DNA of 52,376 nucleotides. Origin: Paraeggerthella hongkongensis. Its GTDB lineage: Bacteria > Actinomycetota > Coriobacteriia > Coriobacteriales > Eggerthellaceae. The notes under the pieces are model-generated. The model saw only the letters and a list, made by a program, of their open reading frames with translations, had not been told where the DNA came from and ran no database searches. Position 1 is the stretch's first letter. Each line of letters opens with the position of its first letter. The DNA lies in assembly GCF_003340345.1 (NCBI RefSeq), contig NZ_PPTQ01000019.1, positions 1 to 52,376 on the forward strand. The letters are read 5' to 3'. Below are positions 2,870 through 42,802 of this stretch, piece by piece. Both the position numbers and the translations under genes were made by a program.

Positions 2870-3489
2870 GCCGTCTCCTTTCCGGAAGATGGCACGGAAA
2901 ACCGTGCCGGGGCAACATCCGCTGCACGCGTCGGGCAGCTTTCGCGATCCTGCCGAAGCGAAGCGATGCGACCCGCCGCCTGCGCGGATCGCGCGCGATC
3001 CGCAAAACCCTCATGAGTGGTAAAGCAGATCGCAGCAGCCAGCGCATCGGCTGCGTGGTCGGGACGAGGAACGGCCTCAAGCGCCAAAAGCTGACGCACC
3101 ATGTACTGCACCTGGTCTTTGTCAGCAGAGCCCGTTCCCACGACGGCAAGCTTTATCTGGCTGGGAGAAAACTCCCCCACCCGAAGATCTCGCTCGGCGC
3201 ATGCAACCAATGCAGCCCCGCGCGCCTGACCCGTGGCGAACGCGCTTTGGGTGTTCGAGCCGAACCATACCGTTTCCACGCCCGCGCACGTTGGCTCGAA
3301 ACGAGCGATAACGGCGCCCATCTGGCGATGTATCTTCATGAGGCGATGCGCCAGCGGCATATCCTTCGAAGTGGAGATGCAGCCGTACGCGACGCAGGAA
3401 AGACGCGCCCCGCACTGAGACACGATTCCCCAGCCGGTGTTGGCCAAACCGGGATCGATACCGAGAATCGTTCGCTGCACCTGCGTCAT
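2866..3489 (-). CDS. ruvC: Crossover junction endodeoxyribonuclease RuvC
   Basis: RuvC resolves Holliday junctions by paired nicks. The RNase-H-like fold is shown by ILGIDPGLANTGWG (first catalytic Asp), the acidic GVETVWFG, and the C-terminal DHAADALAAA pair. 207 residues from the chosen ATG, slightly longer than typical because of about 30 extra C-terminal residues (QAAGRIASLRQDRES...). The start was chosen because AAAGGGTCAA precedes the ATG; the open frame extends upstream but would run into the promoter and LexA box. First gene of the ruvCAB unit. Confidence 0.95.
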   Translation of the reverse strand: MTQVQRTILGIDPGLANTGWGIVSQCGARLSCVAYGCISTSKDMPLAHRLMKIHRQMGAVIARFEPTCAGVETVWFGSNTQSAFATGQARGAALVACAERDLRVGEFSPSQIKLAVVGTGSADKDQVQYMVRQLLALEAVPRPDHAADALAAAICFTTHEGFADRARSAQAAGRIASLRQDRESCPTRAADVAPARFSVPSSGKETA

Positions 3490-3540
3490 TTGACCCTTTC
3501 CCACCACGCTTGCGCAGCTACGTGGCCGCAAGCGCATCGT

Positions 3541-3563
3541 TATATAGTACAAACGTATGTTCG
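3541..3563 (-). promoter_or_regulatory. LexA (SOS) box and -10 region of ruvCAB
   Basis: CGAACATACGTTTG (3550-3563, minus strand) matches the Gram-positive LexA consensus CGAACRNRYGTTYG at every position. An AT-rich TATATA (3541-3546) just downstream can serve as the -10 box, so LexA would sit over the core promoter. It lies about 60 bases upstream of ruvC. SOS control of ruv genes is well known; its use here is inferred from the site. No lexA gene is in the window. Confidence 0.8.
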
Positions 3564-3693
3564 TTCCCATCCTATCACAAAACGAAACGAACCGAGGGAA
3601 AATATCAAGGTTGACTCGACAAGCGCACAACCCGTCGAACGTCGTCGCATCCTAGACGCAGCAGCGTTTCCGCGCGGTCGAACCTCGACCTGG

Positions 3694-3736
3694 AAAACAA
3701 AAAAGCCGCCGCAGATGCTCTGATCGCGGCGGCTTT
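3694..3736 (-). terminator. Rho-independent terminator downstream of yebC
   Basis: On the minus strand AAAGCCGCCGC pairs with GCGGCGGCTTT across a 13-base loop, and a T-rich tract (TTTTTTGTTTT) follows. It separates yebC from the independently promoted ruvCAB unit. Confidence 0.85.
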
Positions 3737-3754
3737 GATCGTATGCTGCGTGCG

Positions 3755-4555
3755 CTATTCGTCGAGCGCGGCGGCAATCTCTTCGGTGATGTCCATAGCA
3801 TGGTAGACGTTCTGAAGATCCTCGAGCTCTTCCAGCTTGTCCACCAAGCGCATGACCTTCTTCGCGTCGGACACGCTCACCGCCGCAGGCGTGGTGGGCT
3901 CCATGGTCAGCTCGGCGCCCTTCGTGACGACGCCAGCCTCTTCCAAAGCCTTCTTCACGGCCATGAGATCGGTCGGACCCGTGTAGACGATCCACTCGTC
4001 CTCGGCATCCTCGTAGTCGTCGCCGCCGGCCTCGGCCACGGCCAACATGAACTCTTCCTCGTCGGCTGCAGCGCCGTTGGGCCTCACGGGATTCTTCTTA
4101 TCGCCGGTCTCGACCTCTTTCGCCACCATGATCTGGCCCTTGCGCTCGAACATGAACGCCACCGAGCCCGAGGTGCCCAGGTTGCCGCCGGAATGGCTGA
4201 ACGCCGCGCGCACATCGGCAGCCGTGCGGTTGCGGTTGTCGGTCAGCGCTTCGCAGTAGACGGCCACGCCGCACGGGCCGTAGCCCTCGTAGACGACCGT
4301 CTCGTAGTTGGCGGAATCTTTGCCCGAACCGAAGGCCTTGTCGATAGCGACCTTGATCTTGTCCTTCGGCAAAGAGTAGCCTTTGGCCTTTTCAATGGCG
4401 GCAGCAAGCGACGCGTTGTTGTCGGGGTTCGGGTCGCCACCCTCCTTGGCTGCCACCGTAATGTTGCGCGACAGCTTGGAGAACAAGGCCGAGCGCTTAG
4501 CGTCCTGCGCAGCCTTGCGATGCTTTGTAGTTGCCCATTTAGAATGCCCTGACAT
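3755..4555 (-). CDS. yebC: YebC/PmpR family DNA-binding or translation-associated protein
   Basis: A 266-residue protein starting MSGHSKWATTKHRKAAQDAKR, the invariant YebC/TACO1 N-terminus. Family motifs continue with GGDPNPDNNASLAAAIEKAK, GYGPCGVAVYCEALTDNRNRT and the acidic C-terminal domains. Family members have been described as transcriptional regulators and, more recently, as factors that relieve ribosome stalling. The gene is often placed just before ruvC, as here, though a terminator and a LexA-type promoter divide the two. The ATG follows GGAAGGGA. A possible -10 (TAGAAT) lies at 4591-4596. Slightly longer than usual (about 245) because of an insertion near residues 140-165. Confidence 0.93.
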   Translation of the reverse strand: MSGHSKWATTKHRKAAQDAKRSALFSKLSRNITVAAKEGGDPNPDNNASLAAAIEKAKGYSLPKDKIKVAIDKAFGSGKDSANYETVVYEGYGPCGVAVYCEALTDNRNRTAADVRAAFSHSGGNLGTSGSVAFMFERKGQIMVAKEVETGDKKNPVRPNGAAADEEEFMLAVAEAGGDDYEDAEDEWIVYTGPTDLMAVKKALEEAGVVTKGAELTMEPTTPAAVSVSDAKKVMRLVDKLEELEDLQNVYHAMDITEEIAAALDE

Positions 4556-4791
4556 ATGCGTCCCTTCCGATGTTGCAATACCAGCCGCTTATTCTAGCAC
4601 ACACGCCTTATCCCCTGTTCGCATTTGCAGGGTTTTCAAAAACACGGTTGAAAATATCGATCGGTATCAAGATGGCCACAGCACGCCTACGATACCGAAC
4701 GCATGCCCGCAGACGCTAGCCGAGTCCATACAATCGTTAAAGACGAGGGTTTTCGACGGCCCCCGGCAACATCAACGGAAGGAGCACCGCC

Positions 4792-22689: not shown

Positions 22690-22892
22690 TATACTCCAAG
22701 CGGAAACGGCGTCCCGCACGAGCGCGCGCGAGCGACGCCCCATGCGTCCCCGCACGTGCCAGCGCGATCGACGCTCCTGCGCGCGAATGGCGCCCCATGC
22801 GCGTGCAACACCCCGCACGAGCAAGCGCGAGCGACGCCCCTGCGCACAAGTGGCGCTCCATGCCCGCGCGCACAAGCGCGAGCCGCGCCCCC
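22690..22892. repeat. Degenerate GC-rich tandem array left of element A
   Basis: Roughly 55-60-bp units built on GCACGAGC-x-AGCGCGAGCGACGCCCC and a GGCGC(C/T)CCATGC tail are repeated about three and a half times with many substitutions. The frames are open but low-complexity (Ala, Arg, Ser, Pro rich) and look like by-products of the repeat. The array ends exactly where element A begins. Confidence 0.6.
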
Positions 22893-23099
22893 GCGCACGA
22901 AAAACCGCCTTCGCTGGCAGGTTTTGACGGTTTGAGGTCGTTTGATCCGACCGGACGAACGCCCGCGAAGACGCAGCACAGCAGCCCAACGCTATGACCA
23001 GGGAAAATGAGAAACGCGGCGAACGCCAACGAAAGCGAGGTCCGATTCAACGACTTCTAAACGCAAAAACCTGCCAGCGAGGGCGGTTTTTCGTGCGCA
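22893..23099. repeat. Palindromic repeat element, copy A (207 bp)
   Basis: Bounded by near-identical terminal inverted repeats of about 48 bp that start GCGCACGAAAAACCGCC; about 42 of 48 positions match. The interior shares ATGACCAGG-AAAA-GA with copies B and C. No transposase is present. The element can fold into one long hairpin. It sits in the acpS-nnrD intergenic space. Confidence 0.85.
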
Positions 23100-37286: not shown

Positions 37287-38132
37287 ATGGCAGAAGAATG
37301 TTCGCATGAGTGCGGCAGCTGCGGCGTGTCCGGTTGCGGCGATCGCACGGCCCAAGGTCCCTCCACCATCGAAACCAACTCCCGCAGCAACATCAAGCAC
37401 GTCATCGGCGTCGTATCCGGCAAAGGCGGCGTGGGCAAGTCGCTCGTGACCAGCCTGCTGGCCAGCCAAATGCAGAAGCGCGGATTCAACGTGGGCATTC
37501 TGGACGCAGACGTCACCGGTCCTTCCATTCCCAAGACGTTCGGCATCACCAACCCCCTGGCAGCCGACGCCGACGGCATCCTGCCGTCGCAGACGCAAAG
37601 CGGCATCAAGGTCATGTCCACCAACCTCATGCTTCCGAAAGACGATGTGCCGGTAGCATGGCGCGGGCCCGTGGTCAGCAACGCCATCCGCCAGTTCTAC
37701 AGCGAAACGAACTGGGGCGAGATCGACTACCTGTTCGTCGACATGCCTCCGGGAACCTCCGACGTGCTGCTCACCGTGTTCCAGTCGCTGCCGGTTGACG
37801 GTATCGTCACCGTGTCGGCCCCGCAGGAGCTTGTGGCCATGATCGTGGGCAAGGCCGTGAACCTGGCTCACGACATGAACGTCGAGCTGCTGGGCCTGGT
37901 GGAGAACATGGCCTACTTCAAGTGCGACAACTGCGACAAGGAGCATCATATCTTCGGCGAGCCCCAGGGCTCCGTCGTGGCAGAGCGCTACAACATCCCC
38001 GCCTACGCCACCCTGCCCATCGATCCGGCGTTCGCGCGCCTGTGCGATGCCGGCCGCGTGGAGGATTACGACGTGGACGGAGCGCTCGACCCCATCATCG
38101 CCCAAATCGAGCAGGCCTGCGCCGCGGAATAG
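37287..38132 (+). CDS. mrp: Mrp/NBP35-family P-loop ATPase (Fe-S cluster carrier)
   Basis: A 281-residue SIMIBI-class ATPase. The N-terminus is Cys-rich (CSHECGSCGVSGCG), resembling the ferredoxin-like cluster site of Nbp35. The deviant Walker A is VVSGKGGVGKS (residues about 38-48), followed by DADVTGPSIPKTFG and VDMPPGTSDV. A C-terminal CDNC (about residues 213-216) is the conserved CxxC that holds a bridging cluster between monomers. Such proteins assemble and transfer Fe-S clusters. GAAGGAAG precedes the ATG. Monocistronic. Confidence 0.93.
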   Translation: MAEECSHECGSCGVSGCGDRTAQGPSTIETNSRSNIKHVIGVVSGKGGVGKSLVTSLLASQMQKRGFNVGILDADVTGPSIPKTFGITNPLAADADGILPSQTQSGIKVMSTNLMLPKDDVPVAWRGPVVSNAIRQFYSETNWGEIDYLFVDMPPGTSDVLLTVFQSLPVDGIVTVSAPQELVAMIVGKAVNLAHDMNVELLGLVENMAYFKCDNCDKEHHIFGEPQGSVVAERYNIPAYATLPIDPAFARLCDAGRVEDYDVDGALDPIIAQIEQACAAE

Positions 38133-38175
38133 AGAACCCGGCAAGGCATCGCTAGACACCCCTCCCCAACCTCGA

Positions 38176-38228
38176 CGAAGACCTCCTCGGACGTTGCTGC
38201 AAGCGTTCGGGGAGGCCTTCTTGGTTTT
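38176..38228 (+). terminator. Terminator of mrp
   Basis: GAAGACCTCCTCGGACG pairs imperfectly with CGTTCGGGGAGGCCTTC across a short loop, and TTGGTTTT follows. 44 bases after the mrp stop. Confidence 0.7.
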
Positions 38229-38265
38229 GAGGGAGAAGCGCGGCCCATTGGACAGGAGCGACCCA

Positions 38266-38409
38266 GCCCTGCGCCGCAGCCGCCCCGAGCCGCGGACGTG
38301 CGTCGAAGGCGCCCTCCGGGCCGCCGATCCGCACCGCAGCCGCTCCCGAGTCGCCGACCCGCCCCGCAGCCGCCCTCCGGGCCGCCGTTCCGCCTCATTC
38401 CCATCGGCT
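38266..38409. repeat. Degenerate GC-rich tandem array left of element B
   Basis: Units of about 30-33 bp with cores CCGCAGCCGC(C/T)C and CCGAG(C/T)CGCCGA or CCGGGCCGCCG repeat four to five times with substitutions. The last 35 bases (ending CCCATCGGCTGCGCACG) are nearly the same as those left of element C. Confidence 0.65.
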
Positions 38410-38615
38410 GCGCACGAAAAACCGCCCTCGCTGGCAGGTTCTGACGGTTGGGGGTTGCCGAGTTGGTCGCCCTCTTCGCCGCCGCCGGACCCGTTTTGCG
38501 TTTTGCCTGATCATGGATCCTAGCTGCTGAATTGCATTTTCCCGGGCGCCCGTCCCGCCGGATCAAACGACCTCAAACCGTCAGAACCTGCCAGCGAGGG
38601 CGGTTTTTCGCGCGC
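38410..38615. repeat. Palindromic repeat element, copy B (206 bp)
   Basis: Same 48-bp terminal inverted repeats as copies A and C, with 44 of 48 positions matching between its arms. Both arms carry GGTTCTGACGG where copy C has GGTTTTGACGG in both. The interior is inverted relative to copies A and C, although the left flank matches that of C. Confidence 0.88.
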
Positions 38616-38695
38616 AATGCCTCGACGGACGCAATGCGCTGGCCGAAAACGGCCCCTTGGCAGAAGCCCGGCCCTTCGCGGCGCAGCCGCGACAA

Positions 38696-40033
38696 TCATC
38701 CACGCATCCGAAAAGCCGAAAATGTCCTTCTTCGAAGAGCAATGCAGGTAGGAACCAGCGTCGAAGCAAGCACCAGGCCAAATCCCACCGCCGAGACAAC
38801 AAGACCTTCAGTGAAAGCCAAGCCGTCGAAAAGGGACAAGCCGGCGGCGTTCGCCACGATAGCCTCCGACGCCAATACAGCGAGCATGCCCAGCAAAGTG
38901 GCGTTAACCGCATGAATAAACGCCTCCCACGCAGCAGCAGCCAACAAAGCGGCTGATCCGACGCCACTTACAGAAAGAACGGCGACATCGCGAGCGCGCG
39001 ACCTGGAAGACATCACCACGCCGGCTGCCGCGCCAACCGAGCACAACAGCACGGGACCGCCAAGAAGCAAAACGGACGACGTCCAATCCAGGCTCGTGCT
39101 CAGGTCAGCCATATCCTGCTGCTGCGCGTATATTCCCAGCAGCCCCGAAAGGGAAAATATACTTGCAGCAAAGCCAAATCCCACCATGATGGGCGTTTCG
39201 ATCGAAACGCTCGCAGCAAGGCCGTAGCAAGCGAAACGACGCGCCAGCTGCCAAACGCCTCCGCACCGCTGCGGCACAATCGCGGTCCACGCTCTCATCA
39301 ACGCCGGAAGCACAAGAGGAGCGGCAACCGCCAGCAACGTCATTATAAGAATAGGGGGATACAGCGAGCTGGACACCACGGCACCCGGATCCGCTTCGGC
39401 CATGAAAGCGGAAAGCCGGCAAATACCCACGAGCACTCCCACGAACAGCGCTCCTCGCACCCACGTCATTCCCCTACCCTTCGCTTCCCGCTCACGCAAG
39501 ATCACGATAGGCTCCGTTTTTCCCGCAAGACGGGCCCCTTTGGACCCTCCTACAAGAAACGCCCCCGCAACCGCAAGCCAAACCAACGGCATCAAAGACA
39601 CGCCTACGTCGAGCGCCGCCTGATCGATCGAACGGTAATTAGGAGAATCGAACACCCAGGGAAACAGCGGAACAAACGTAGCCGCTTCAATCAACGTACC
39701 GCATGCAGCACCAAGCACCGCGACCACAGCCAGCTGAACAAGGACCACCAAACTCACCAAGCGCGGGTCGACGCTGGCGAGTCGCCACAAGGCGTAGGAG
39801 CGACGCTGCGCCGCGACCGTCAAGTTCGCAACCGACACGATAACCGCCATCGCCGCAATAGCCGAGAACACGAGCACAACCCAACCGAGATCTCGAAGGC
39901 TTTCGCAGGTGCTCGCGGATGCGGCAAGCGAGGCGACCCATCCCCCAACATAGCCGCATGCCAACGCGACAGCAAACGCCCCGACCCATACAAGGATATG
40001 ATCGCGAAGATCGGCGAATGCGAGCTTGATCAT
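38696..40033 (-). CDS. ABC transporter permease, FtsX/MacB-like
   Basis: A 445-residue inner-membrane protein with about eight to ten hydrophobic helices. It has the layout of FtsX-domain exporters: one N-terminal helix, a short loop, a three-helix FtsX unit (VFSAIAAMAVIVSVANLTVAAQ...RLASVDPRLVSLVVLVQLAVVA), then a second half. There is no large extracytoplasmic domain as in MacB. The start overlaps the ATPase stop (ATGA). Such pairs export antimicrobial peptides or lipids, or sense them; the substrate is unknown. It is the last gene of a regulator-ATPase-permease operon bracketed by two palindromic elements. Confidence 0.85.
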   Translation of the reverse strand: MIKLAFADLRDHILVWVGAFAVALACGYVGGWVASLAASASTCESLRDLGWVVLVFSAIAAMAVIVSVANLTVAAQRRSYALWRLASVDPRLVSLVVLVQLAVVAVLGAACGTLIEAATFVPLFPWVFDSPNYRSIDQAALDVGVSLMPLVWLAVAGAFLVGGSKGARLAGKTEPIVILREREAKGRGMTWVRGALFVGVLVGICRLSAFMAEADPGAVVSSSLYPPILIMTLLAVAAPLVLPALMRAWTAIVPQRCGGVWQLARRFACYGLAASVSIETPIMVGFGFAASIFSLSGLLGIYAQQQDMADLSTSLDWTSSVLLLGGPVLLCSVGAAAGVVMSSRSRARDVAVLSVSGVGSAALLAAAAWEAFIHAVNATLLGMLAVLASEAIVANAAGLSLFDGLAFTEGLVVSAVGFGLVLASTLVPTCIALRRRTFSAFRMRG

Positions 40034-40764
40034 CTTGACACCTCCATAGCCTCAAGTATCTCAGCCGCAGTAGACCGTCCCATCTCTCGCACGATGAGAC
40101 CGTCCTTAAGCACGAGAACGCGATCGGCCAAAGAAGCAGCTTCCAGATCATGAGTCACCATCACTACCGACCGTCGCCCGTCGTTGCTAACGCTGCGCAA
40201 CATGCCCAAGACATCACGGCCGCTCTTGGAATCGAGCGCACCCGTCGGTTCATCGGCGAACACCACGTCCGCATCGCTCGCAAGCGCGCGAGCTATAGCT
40301 ACACGCTGCTGCTCGCCTCCAGACAACTCGGACGGATAGCTGTTCCACCGATCCGCAAGCCCCATATCGTCGAGCAAGGCGCGCACGTGCTCCTTCGTTG
40401 TCGATCGATCCGCCAACCGCGCAGGTAGCCATACGTTTTCGCCCGCATTCAGCGAGGGTATCAGGTTGTACGACTGGAAAACGAATCCCAGATGATCTTT
40501 TTGGATCTTGAAAAGAGAACGCCGGCTCGCTTTCGTGATTCGCTTTCCCATCACTTCGACAAAACCCGACCCGACCGACTCCAGCCCGGACAAGCAATAC
40601 AGCAAGGTCGATTTACCCGACCCGCTCGGACCGACAATGCTCACCATCTCGCCAGCATCGACAGTAAGGCTGACGCCCTTCAGCACATCAACTGCCCGAC
40701 GATTGTTTTTTCGGCCCGTATCAAACGATTTCCACACATTGCGCGCGACGATTGCAGCACCCAT
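40030..40764 (-). CDS. ABC transporter ATP-binding protein, LolD/MacB-type
   Basis: A 244-residue ATPase. Walker A is [15 protein letters not shown], the Q-loop is [13 protein letters not shown], the signature is [15 protein letters not shown] and Walker B is [16 protein letters not shown], the [10 protein letters not shown] form typical of MacB/LolD/BceA exporters. Followed by [16 protein letters not shown]. Partner of the FtsX-like permease with overlapping stop and start. The regulator gene lies 121 bp upstream; that gap is AT-rich and shows no clear terminator. Confidence 0.92.
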
Positions 40765-40885
40765 GAGCCCTCCTTAGAACAGGTGAACGAGACAGCAGAA
40801 CCCTAGAGCGAATACCTCCGCCCAAGAAAAGAACGCAATTGAAAAGATCCATTGAAATAAAACGAGCGAATATGGCTTTCCGCCC

Positions 40886-41845
40886 TTAATTCCGCATAGA
40901 GCACAATGCCTTAATCGCAACGTACACCAAGCCGCCAATAGGCCACGAAAGAAGAAAGAGCCTGTTCAACGCTGGGATGAATATCATGATCAACCCCGCC
41001 ACGGTAGCAGCGCTCATGATGACCACGAGCAAGTTCCGTTCCCGTCTTGCCCGCCGAGCCCGAGAAGCAAGATCCTCGTCATCTAAAGCCTCTATCTGGA
41101 GCTCGGTCATGCTACGCAGCGAGGTCCAATTGTATTTGGGCAAATCGCAGCGCAACGACAGCAACCGCCCACGCACCATCACGAACACGCCGACCGAAAA
41201 GAACGCCAACCCGGTCGCGGTGGCCGTCCATACGTCGGCCCACAGCACAACAGCACCCGCCAAGCCAGTCAAGATCAACCCGACGCCCGCAACAAGCCCG
41301 ATCGCCATAGCCGCACGGGACTGGCTTTTTTGATCGGCAGTATAAAAATCTTCCACGAAGGGGTGAGCCTTACGAAATTCACGACGATCGAATATCGCCG
41401 GTAAAGCAAATGCACATCCGACAGCAATCCCCAAAAACGCCAATACGCTCGCATAGCTTTGGTTGATCGCTCCTTGCACGGGCATGAACCCCGAAAAAAG
41501 AACAGCAAGGGCAATTCCCATCATGGACGCAGACAAACCTAAAGGGGCTTTCCAGGCAAACGCACGCATCGCCTGATCGTACCCCGTCACATCCTGCAAT
41601 GCCTCCACGCGAGGTACGGCGGCGACGGCCTTTCCCGGTCTTCCTGTTAGATCCCCCGAGACCAGCTCATCAAGCGTGCATTCAAACAAATCGCACATCC
41701 TGAGAAGCTTATCCATCTCGGGATACGCACGCTCCGCTTCCCATTTCGACACAGACTGGCGGCTTACCCCTAACAGCATGGCAAGTTGTTCTTGCGTCAT
41801 GTTGCGCGTTGCGCGTAGGTGTTGCATGTTAGCGCGAAAGCCCAT
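40886..41845 (-). CDS. XRE-family regulator with C-terminal membrane domain
   Basis: A 319-residue protein. Residues 1-65 form a helix-turn-helix of the XRE/Cro type (MTQEQLAMLLGVSRQSVSKWE). A linker (66-90) leads to five or six hydrophobic helices (LGLSASMMGIALAVLFSGF, YASVLAFLGIAVGCAFALP, AIGLVAGVGLILTGLAGAVVL, the last at the C-terminus). The DNA-binding domain is thus tethered to the membrane. It likely controls the downstream ABC exporter in response to a membrane signal, which is inference from context. The start at 41845 follows AAGGATGGGAT; the upstream open frame lacks support. Confidence 0.88.
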   Translation of the reverse strand: MGFRANMQHLRATRNMTQEQLAMLLGVSRQSVSKWEAERAYPEMDKLLRMCDLFECTLDELVSGDLTGRPGKAVAAVPRVEALQDVTGYDQAMRAFAWKAPLGLSASMMGIALAVLFSGFMPVQGAINQSYASVLAFLGIAVGCAFALPAIFDRREFRKAHPFVEDFYTADQKSQSRAAMAIGLVAGVGLILTGLAGAVVLWADVWTATATGLAFFSVGVFVMVRGRLLSLRCDLPKYNWTSLRSMTELQIEALDDEDLASRARRARRERNLLVVIMSAATVAGLIMIFIPALNRLFLLSWPIGGLVYVAIKALCSMRN

Positions 41846-41964
41846 ATCCCATCCTTTACCTGAAATCGAATCATCGAACAAAAGGATTCTTCGCATATGA
41901 ATCAACGCTTGCCATAATGGCGACGCCAAGACGGGCAATCAACCAACTTGCGGCTGCGTTTTTC

Positions 41965-41992
41965 TTGATAACATGACAACTTTTGGTATCAA
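41965..41992. promoter_or_regulatory. Possible operator upstream of the XRE regulator
   Basis: TTGATA-N16-TATCAA is an inverted repeat about 120-147 bases upstream of the regulator ATG in an AT-rich stretch. Could be an autoregulatory site; no match to a known operator. Confidence 0.35.
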
Positions 41993-42224
41993 ATCGCAGG
42001 TCAACAGCATAATGTACAAGCAACGATCAAAAACGATAAGCAAGATCGAACAAGGTAAACGGCTGCAGGGAGCAGCGTAAAGCACCGACTGCGCGTACGA
42101 ATCCATGGATCCAGCCTGATGCCGCAGACCCCCCAGCGTTCGACTCCGCTCAAACGGCAATTCGGCTTGCGCAAGTCAACAGCTGCACCTCCCATAAGCC
42201 AGCTTCAACATGCACCGGTTTCGT

Positions 42225-42303
42225 CTGCGCCGCAGCCGCTCCCGAGCCGCCGACGTGCCGCAGCCGCCCTCCGGGTCGCCGTTCCGCCCCATTCCCATCG
42301 GCT
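42225..42303. repeat. Degenerate tandem array left of element C
   Basis: About two and a half units of the same GCCGCAGCCGCTCCCGAG type seen left of copy B, ending in CCCATCGGCTGCGCACG at the element border. Confidence 0.65.
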
Positions 42304-42509
42304 GCGCACGAAAAACCGCCATCGCTGGCAGGTTTTGACGGTTTGAGGTCGTTTGATCCAGCAGGATGGGCGCCCAGGGAAACACAACCCAGCAGCTAGG
42401 AGCCATGACCAGGCAAAACGAAAAACGGGTTCGGCAGCGGCGAAGAGGGCGACCAACTCGGCAACCCCTAACCGTCAAAACCTGCCAGCGAGGGCGGTTT
42501 TTCGTGCGC
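42304..42509. repeat. Palindromic repeat element, copy C (206 bp)
   Basis: Terminal inverted repeats of 48 bp (44 positions matching), starting GCGCACGAAAAACCGCC on both outer ends. The interior includes CTAGGAGCCATGACCAGG, resembling a ribosome site and start codon of an Arg-rich mini-frame that runs out through the right arm. Same interior orientation as copy A. Confidence 0.88.
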
Positions 42510-42756
42510 AAGTTCCTTGTAGACGTTAATTCACCAGCAAAACTCGCTCGTTTTGACAGAAGGTCGAGCTTTCGCGGCACCGCGAAAAACTCGGTTCCAT
42601 TTCGCAGTCCATACGCATGCGCGACGCGGCGTGCCCCACAGGCCGATCGCCGTATATCGTGCTGCACCCCGTGTCCCGTGCGCATCGCGCCGCTCACGAG
42701 AACGTACGGTGAAAATTCATGGGGGGGGGGCACATTTGTGACATTTCCCCAAACAT
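42510..42756. other. Non-coding stretch with a run of ten G
   Basis: No gene is supported. The stretch contains CGCGGCACCGCG-type short hairpins and a homopolymer of ten G at 42721-42730 directly after an ATG. The region 41846-42224 on the other side of element C also holds no supported gene beyond the regulator's upstream region. Confidence 0.5.
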
Positions 42757-42791
42757 AAAAAAGCAGGCCAGGCAATCACTGCCTGACCTGC
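42757..42791 (-). terminator. Terminator of tRNA-Ala
   Basis: On the minus strand GCAGGTCAGGCA-GTGAT-TGCCTGGCCTGC (one mismatch) is followed by TTTTTT. Confidence 0.9.
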
Positions 42792-42802
42792 GTAATTAAT
42801 GG

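Follow-up and report, generated by a model that had tools for sequence, protein, structure and literature searches.

The locus

The window, which is the whole stretch of 52,376 nt from Paraeggerthella hongkongensis analysed here, contains three copies (A, B and C) of a short element whose positions are collected in Table 1. As called, copies B and C are each 208 bp long, with inverted arms of 47 nt that enclose 114 nt, and the arms of B are 94% complementary to each other. The block between B and C harbors genes for a 445-aa protein without Pfam match, an ABC ATPase and an HTH regulator. Its G+C content is 54-61% versus 58-69% around it (750-nt steps), no relative of the protein at 38696-40033 was found in a scan of the genome contigs, and the region 38230-42745 has no substantial match in the sister genome (P. 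hongkongensis DSM 16106, G001). Judged by its sequence, the block may have been acquired, with the two copies as its borders.

A sequence scan revealed an outward-pointing terminator-like hairpin in all four arms of B and C. Since each arm carries the same kind of hairpin, a flipped interior leaves the ends of the element alike. The region 38100-42800 holds 18 terminator-like sites versus 7.9 in shuffled sequences, and one promoter-like site (41890-41918, outside the elements) versus 1.7 expected in shuffles when the sigma-70 consensus is used. A comparison of 38100-42700 with Rfam gave no hit at E values of 5 or less. Two minor features lie to the right of copy C. A 27-nt sequence at 42533-42559 recurs several times, exactly or almost so, in the sister genome and perhaps represents a second short repeat family, and a run of ten G (42721-42730) is located between copy C and a tRNA-Ala gene.

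Table 1. Positions of the element copies, their parts and the adjoining flanks in the window
Feature	Position	Strand	Remarks
Element copy A	22892..23099	-	208 bp; flank similarity to B or C looked for, none found
GC-rich flank left of B	38274..38408	.	TRF: degenerate array 38274-38393
Element copy B	38409..38616	+ (family orientation +)	208 bp; covariance-model match 1-208, 209 bits
B left inverted arm	38409..38455	+	terminator-like hairpin pointing left, 38437-38422, minus strand
B interior	38456..38569	+	114 nt; opposite in sense to C and the C15 copy
B central asymmetric motif	38501..38513	+	family consensus TTTTGCCTGGTCA, element positions 93-105
B right inverted arm	38570..38616	-	terminator-like hairpin pointing right, 38588-38603
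Flank copy beside C	42224..42302	.	89% to 38328-38408
Element copy C	42303..42510	- (family orientation -)	208 bp
C left inverted arm	42303..42349	+	terminator-like hairpin pointing left, 42331-42316, minus strand
C right inverted arm	42464..42510	-	terminator-like hairpin pointing right, 42482-42497

Copies B and C carry opposite interiors beside a common flank

The left flanks of B and C are identical at 43 of 45 positions over their last 45 nt (ungapped). With gaps allowed and the low-complexity filter off, the shared stretch comprises about 80 nt at 89% identity (E 6e-25). The sequence-only reading of this DNA had placed both copies in the same outside orientation by means of this flank, and the alignment agrees with it. 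No similarity was found between the right flanks in the copy-versus-copy comparison. Ungapped alignment of the interiors gives 100/114 matches in inverted orientation versus 32/114, which is chance level, in direct orientation; the earlier statement that the interior of B is the reverse complement of that of C is thus confirmed. The arrangement is also visible in short words on the plus strand of the window: CCCATCGGCTGCGCACG occurs at 38400 and 42294 only, while GGGTTGCCGAGTTGGTCGCC lies at 38452 and, in reverse-complemented form, at 42448, and nowhere else. In direct comparison the left arms of B and C agree at 43/47 positions, as do the right arms; the inverted fit is slightly better (45/47 for the right arm), a difference of few positions that would place the breakpoints near the outer ends.

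A family of 208-bp intergenic elements

A DNA search together with a covariance model built from 40 copies detected at least 47 full-length copies in the window's genome. This number is a minimum since 150 of 1737 candidates were scored, and three weak matches (C2:120277, C3:90 and C4:29199; 25-30 bits) are kept outside it. The general layout consists of inverted arms of about 50 nt with about 108 nt between them. Exactly 208 bp were found in 38 of the 47 copies, the remainder having 207 (four), 206 (three) or 209 bp (two); some copy ends were placed by hand, and the covariance-model matches likewise span 206-209.

The majority arm sequence is TGCGCACGAAAAACCGCCCTCGCTGGCAGGTTTTGACGGTTTGAGGTCGT. 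Over 703 pairs of 208-bp copies, compared ungapped, the arms are 81% identical and the interiors 51%, versus 28% in an inverted control of the interiors. Arm pairing extends over 36 columns, nine of which show at least one two-sided change, and hairpin z-scores calculated for single-stranded DNA are -7.2 for B and -11.6 for C. For the interior, the search for helices gave none above the null (best score 0.62; null mean 0.59, maximum 0.80). Allowing up to three mismatches, the central motif TTTTGCCTGGTCA is found in 39/47 copies, always at element position 92 or 93. When gaps are allowed, close interiors have no fewer gap openings per mismatch (25/240) than orthologous intergenic DNA (94/1409); the argument for a fixed length rests on net length and the ungapped register. 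Taken together, the comparisons show B and C to be members of an old, dispersed intergenic family of 208-bp elements with hairpin-forming arms, an interior of fixed length and a central motif.

None of the genes predicted by a home-made gene finder contains a copy, and three copies overlap a gene edge by 7 to 36 nt. Among the 42 copies with two neighbours, 14 lie between convergent, 19 between tandem and 9 between divergent genes. A strict terminator role was rejected in view of this gene context, which lacks a strong bias. No description of the family was found in open-licence papers, searched mostly by title and the opening of the abstract, and viral contigs gave no match to one arm pattern. 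Five copies have a contig end no more than about 200 nt away (C15, C16, C20, C25 and C45); the hairpin is perhaps hard to sequence or assemble.

Copies that share flanking sequence

The 159 nt left of B were used as a query against the window's genome and one other genome of the genus. Besides B itself, two places were matched: C, over 81 nt at 89% (E 2e-23), and a copy on contig C15, over 35 nt at 86% (E 6e-5). The sister genome gave no match, and no flank copy without the element was found in the two genomes of the genus. Chance similarity within the degenerate array, which the sequence-only reading had considered as an objection, does not account for the resemblance: the flank is found only beside these three copies, and each match touches the element. 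Between B and the C15 copy the similarity extends to both flanks (37 nt at 86% on one side, 57 nt at 74% with E 3e-4 on the other), and their interiors agree at 99/114 positions inverted and 34/114 direct. The interior of C agrees with that of the C15 copy at 101/114 positions directly and has the same sense relative to the flank. Because this flank was found nowhere else, it appears to have been duplicated together with the element. It follows, as far as sequence similarity can tell, that B, C and the C15 copy would be descendants of one duplicated unit including the flank.

Among the 47 copies there are three flank-sharing groups (E up to 1e-3, with no more than 30 nt between the element and the start of either match). 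Flipped interiors occur in two of the three, one of which rests on 40 GC-rich nt. This is the pair L012/L017, with a flank of 40 nt at 83% (E 3e-4) and interiors that are 75% alike when flipped and 45% in the other sense; it is probably a second, weaker example, the flank being GC-rich and aligned with the low-complexity filter off. L035 and L036 have both flanks in common and an unflipped interior. These two are direct copies 8.7 kb apart, and a single sister-genome locus (L057 2318-2485) matches one of them on its left side and the other on its right. For several close pairs, such as L034/L042 with interiors 90% alike, no flank similarity was found.

Orthologous loci and matches in other genera

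An exact arm match was found on two contigs of the sister genome, and no other record was returned from the named collection, in a search that may omit records of the genome under study. At 11 of the 13 sister-genome loci retrieved, the sequence corresponds to the locus of a copy in the window's genome; some are intact and several decayed. The interior can be aligned at seven shared loci (76-96% identity, one over only 44 nt), and its orientation is unchanged at all seven. In this count L035 and L036, which fall on one sister-genome locus, are taken once, and L018, L028, L011 and L031, whose interiors gave no useful alignment in the sister genome, are excluded. The sister-genome copy orthologous to L046 carries in its right part a 1.57-kb insertion (L055, about 3189-4759) with an open frame of 491 aa, which by eye is insertion-sequence-like. 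At the B-C site the contigs of the sister genome stop on both sides, in sequence that reads as putative insertion-sequence ends.

Within the Eggerthellaceae, the model matched in 21 of 138 genomes under stricter filters, own and sister genome included. In other genera, 17 of 20 regions entered the motif test, three of G083 being excluded. The motif TTTTGCCTGGTCA was present with at most three mismatches in 7 of these 17 matches and missing or weak in 10; for each of the seven, that level was reached in at most 6 of 200 shuffles. Seven matches in G021, G068 and G054 measure 206-209 bp and those in G070, G088 and G098 152 to 210 bp, their ends being set by the model and so biased towards its own length. 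The matches in G083 are short, with 47-68 bp under the stricter filters and some of 87-166 bp under laxer ones. Three G083 loci (L097-L099) are short arm-matching palindromes with little interior, perhaps a shortened version of the element in a different genus.

How the interior may turn

We regard it as probable that the family is an old hairpin-armed repeat whose interior is occasionally turned by arm-anchored recombination or conversion, slowly and not as a switch. The arms are inverted repeats and thus would permit alignment in either sense, both within a copy and between copies, so that the interior would sometimes be reversed. Arm-anchored recombination, gene conversion in a flipped alignment, or template switching at the hairpin could each set the interior in reverse while the flanks stay in place. 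The B/C/C15 group would have undergone at least one such event, the pair L012/L017 probably one. To judge from the orthologous loci, it would be slow, may accompany duplication and would not constitute a phase switch.

The inversion between the arms put forward by the sequence-only reading stands as the simplest account of B versus C and the C15 copy; exchange between the arms did not emerge strongly. Complementarity is higher between the two arms of a copy than between arms of different copies (85.2% vs 82.7%; 0 of 5000 permutations). Against nearest relatives only, the effect has p = 0.07, and therefore frequent exchange between arms is not claimed. Flips in two of three flank-sharing groups versus none of seven orthologous loci (about p = 0.07, one-sided, calculated by hand) give a hint, in numbers that are too small, that the interior turns more in connection with duplication or conversion than by inversion in place.

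Among the alternatives, the flank could have been duplicated first, with elements arriving separately at the same position in opposite orientations. The pair L034/L042 speaks for this, as an element alike in its interior but lacking flank similarity can evidently spread or be converted without its flanks. Three arrivals at the same base by mutual closest relatives would however be needed, the flank without the element was not found in the two genomes of the genus, and target-site duplication is absent in the 47 copies; we thus consider separate arrival unlikely.

Still less probable is an assembly artefact in which short reads were joined the wrong way through the inverted arms of B or C. The genome is a draft assembly of 53 contigs, the B arms agree exactly over about 35 nt (read off the sequence), and the five copies near contig ends fit such an error. 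This exact arm match is short, however, C and the C15 copy agree with each other, and a second flipped pair exists at other loci.

We give the least credence to an invertible DNA switch as suggested by the sequence-only reading, in which a site-specific recombinase acting on the arms flips the interior and alters expression of a neighbour: inverted arms, both orientations beside the same flank and a genome with 2 resolvase-type (PF00239) and 11 tyrosine-recombinase (PF00589) matches would suit it, but none of these matches lies on the window's contig (C11), B and C contain no promoter-like site in a scan limited to the sigma-70 consensus, all seven alignable orthologous loci keep one orientation, and the at least 47 copies are spread over many contigs in mixed gene contexts. 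The resemblance to invertons, as PMC11892184 presents them, consists in inverted repeats that bound the segment, as in B and C, and in an interior present in both orientations; the differences are that no promoter-like site matched the sigma-70 consensus, that no invertase was found on the contig and that orientation is fixed at the seven alignable orthologues.

Comparison with known repeats

ERIC and Correia elements are short, dispersed and intergenic, with long inverted ends and a near-fixed size. The 208-bp element resembles these and MITEs in the same respects, and its inverted ends, many copies and absence of a gene inside are MITE traits. In contrast to MITEs, the copies lack target-site duplications: none was recognized in the 47 copies (lengths 2-12, best of 16 offsets), with 9 matches versus 5.5 expected at 2 nt, 4 versus 1.9 at 3 nt and none at 6 nt or more. 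Among the arm matches listed for the own genome, which lie in 208-bp copies, no autonomous transposon with these arms was found. The family also differs from this whole group of repeats in that its copies are old, as the correspondence of 11 of the 13 sister-genome loci, several of them decayed, indicates.

Palindromes in intergenic position and, by eye, a CGTC few nt before the arm hairpin recall REP/BIME and RAYT-linked repeats as described in PMC3733652. REPs have 20-40 bp according to the same paper, whereas the element is a fixed pair of about 208 bp. A RAYT as mobiliser is not supported: the window's genome has no match to the Y1 transposase (PF01797), and at 16 of 46 Y1 matches from 40 genomes the arm profile, which finds all six arms in the window, gave nothing significant (best E 0.83). 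Two of the Y1 loci in relatives (L117 2318-3409 and L118 2454-3311) possess inverted repeats of 36-39 nt, 97-100% complementary and unlike the arms of the element.

Putative role and significance

That length, arms and central motif are conserved suggests that selection acts on a hairpin or cruciform whose gap is fixed. The element is plausibly a putative protein-bound site which may also end transcription from both sides. A more far-reaching proposal, which we hold to be rather doubtful, is an undescribed, slowly evolving chromosomal element of Eggerthellaceae selected for geometry more than for sequence: hairpin arms at a fixed distance of about 108 nt, with an asymmetric putative protein site (about TTTYRCCTGGTCA) between them, would be bound as a cruciform or single-stranded hairpin, and the interior would be a cassette that may turn or be exchanged from copy to copy. 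If geometry and motif do reflect binding, these gut bacteria would contain an unknown chromosome-associated protein.

Irrespective of its role, the family offers a test bed for the question whether long inverted arms mediate inversion or conversion in bacteria. It also carries a warning, in that an interior found in both senses next to the same flank is not necessarily a phase switch. Finally, it shows how the length of an element is kept while its interior drifts and turns round.
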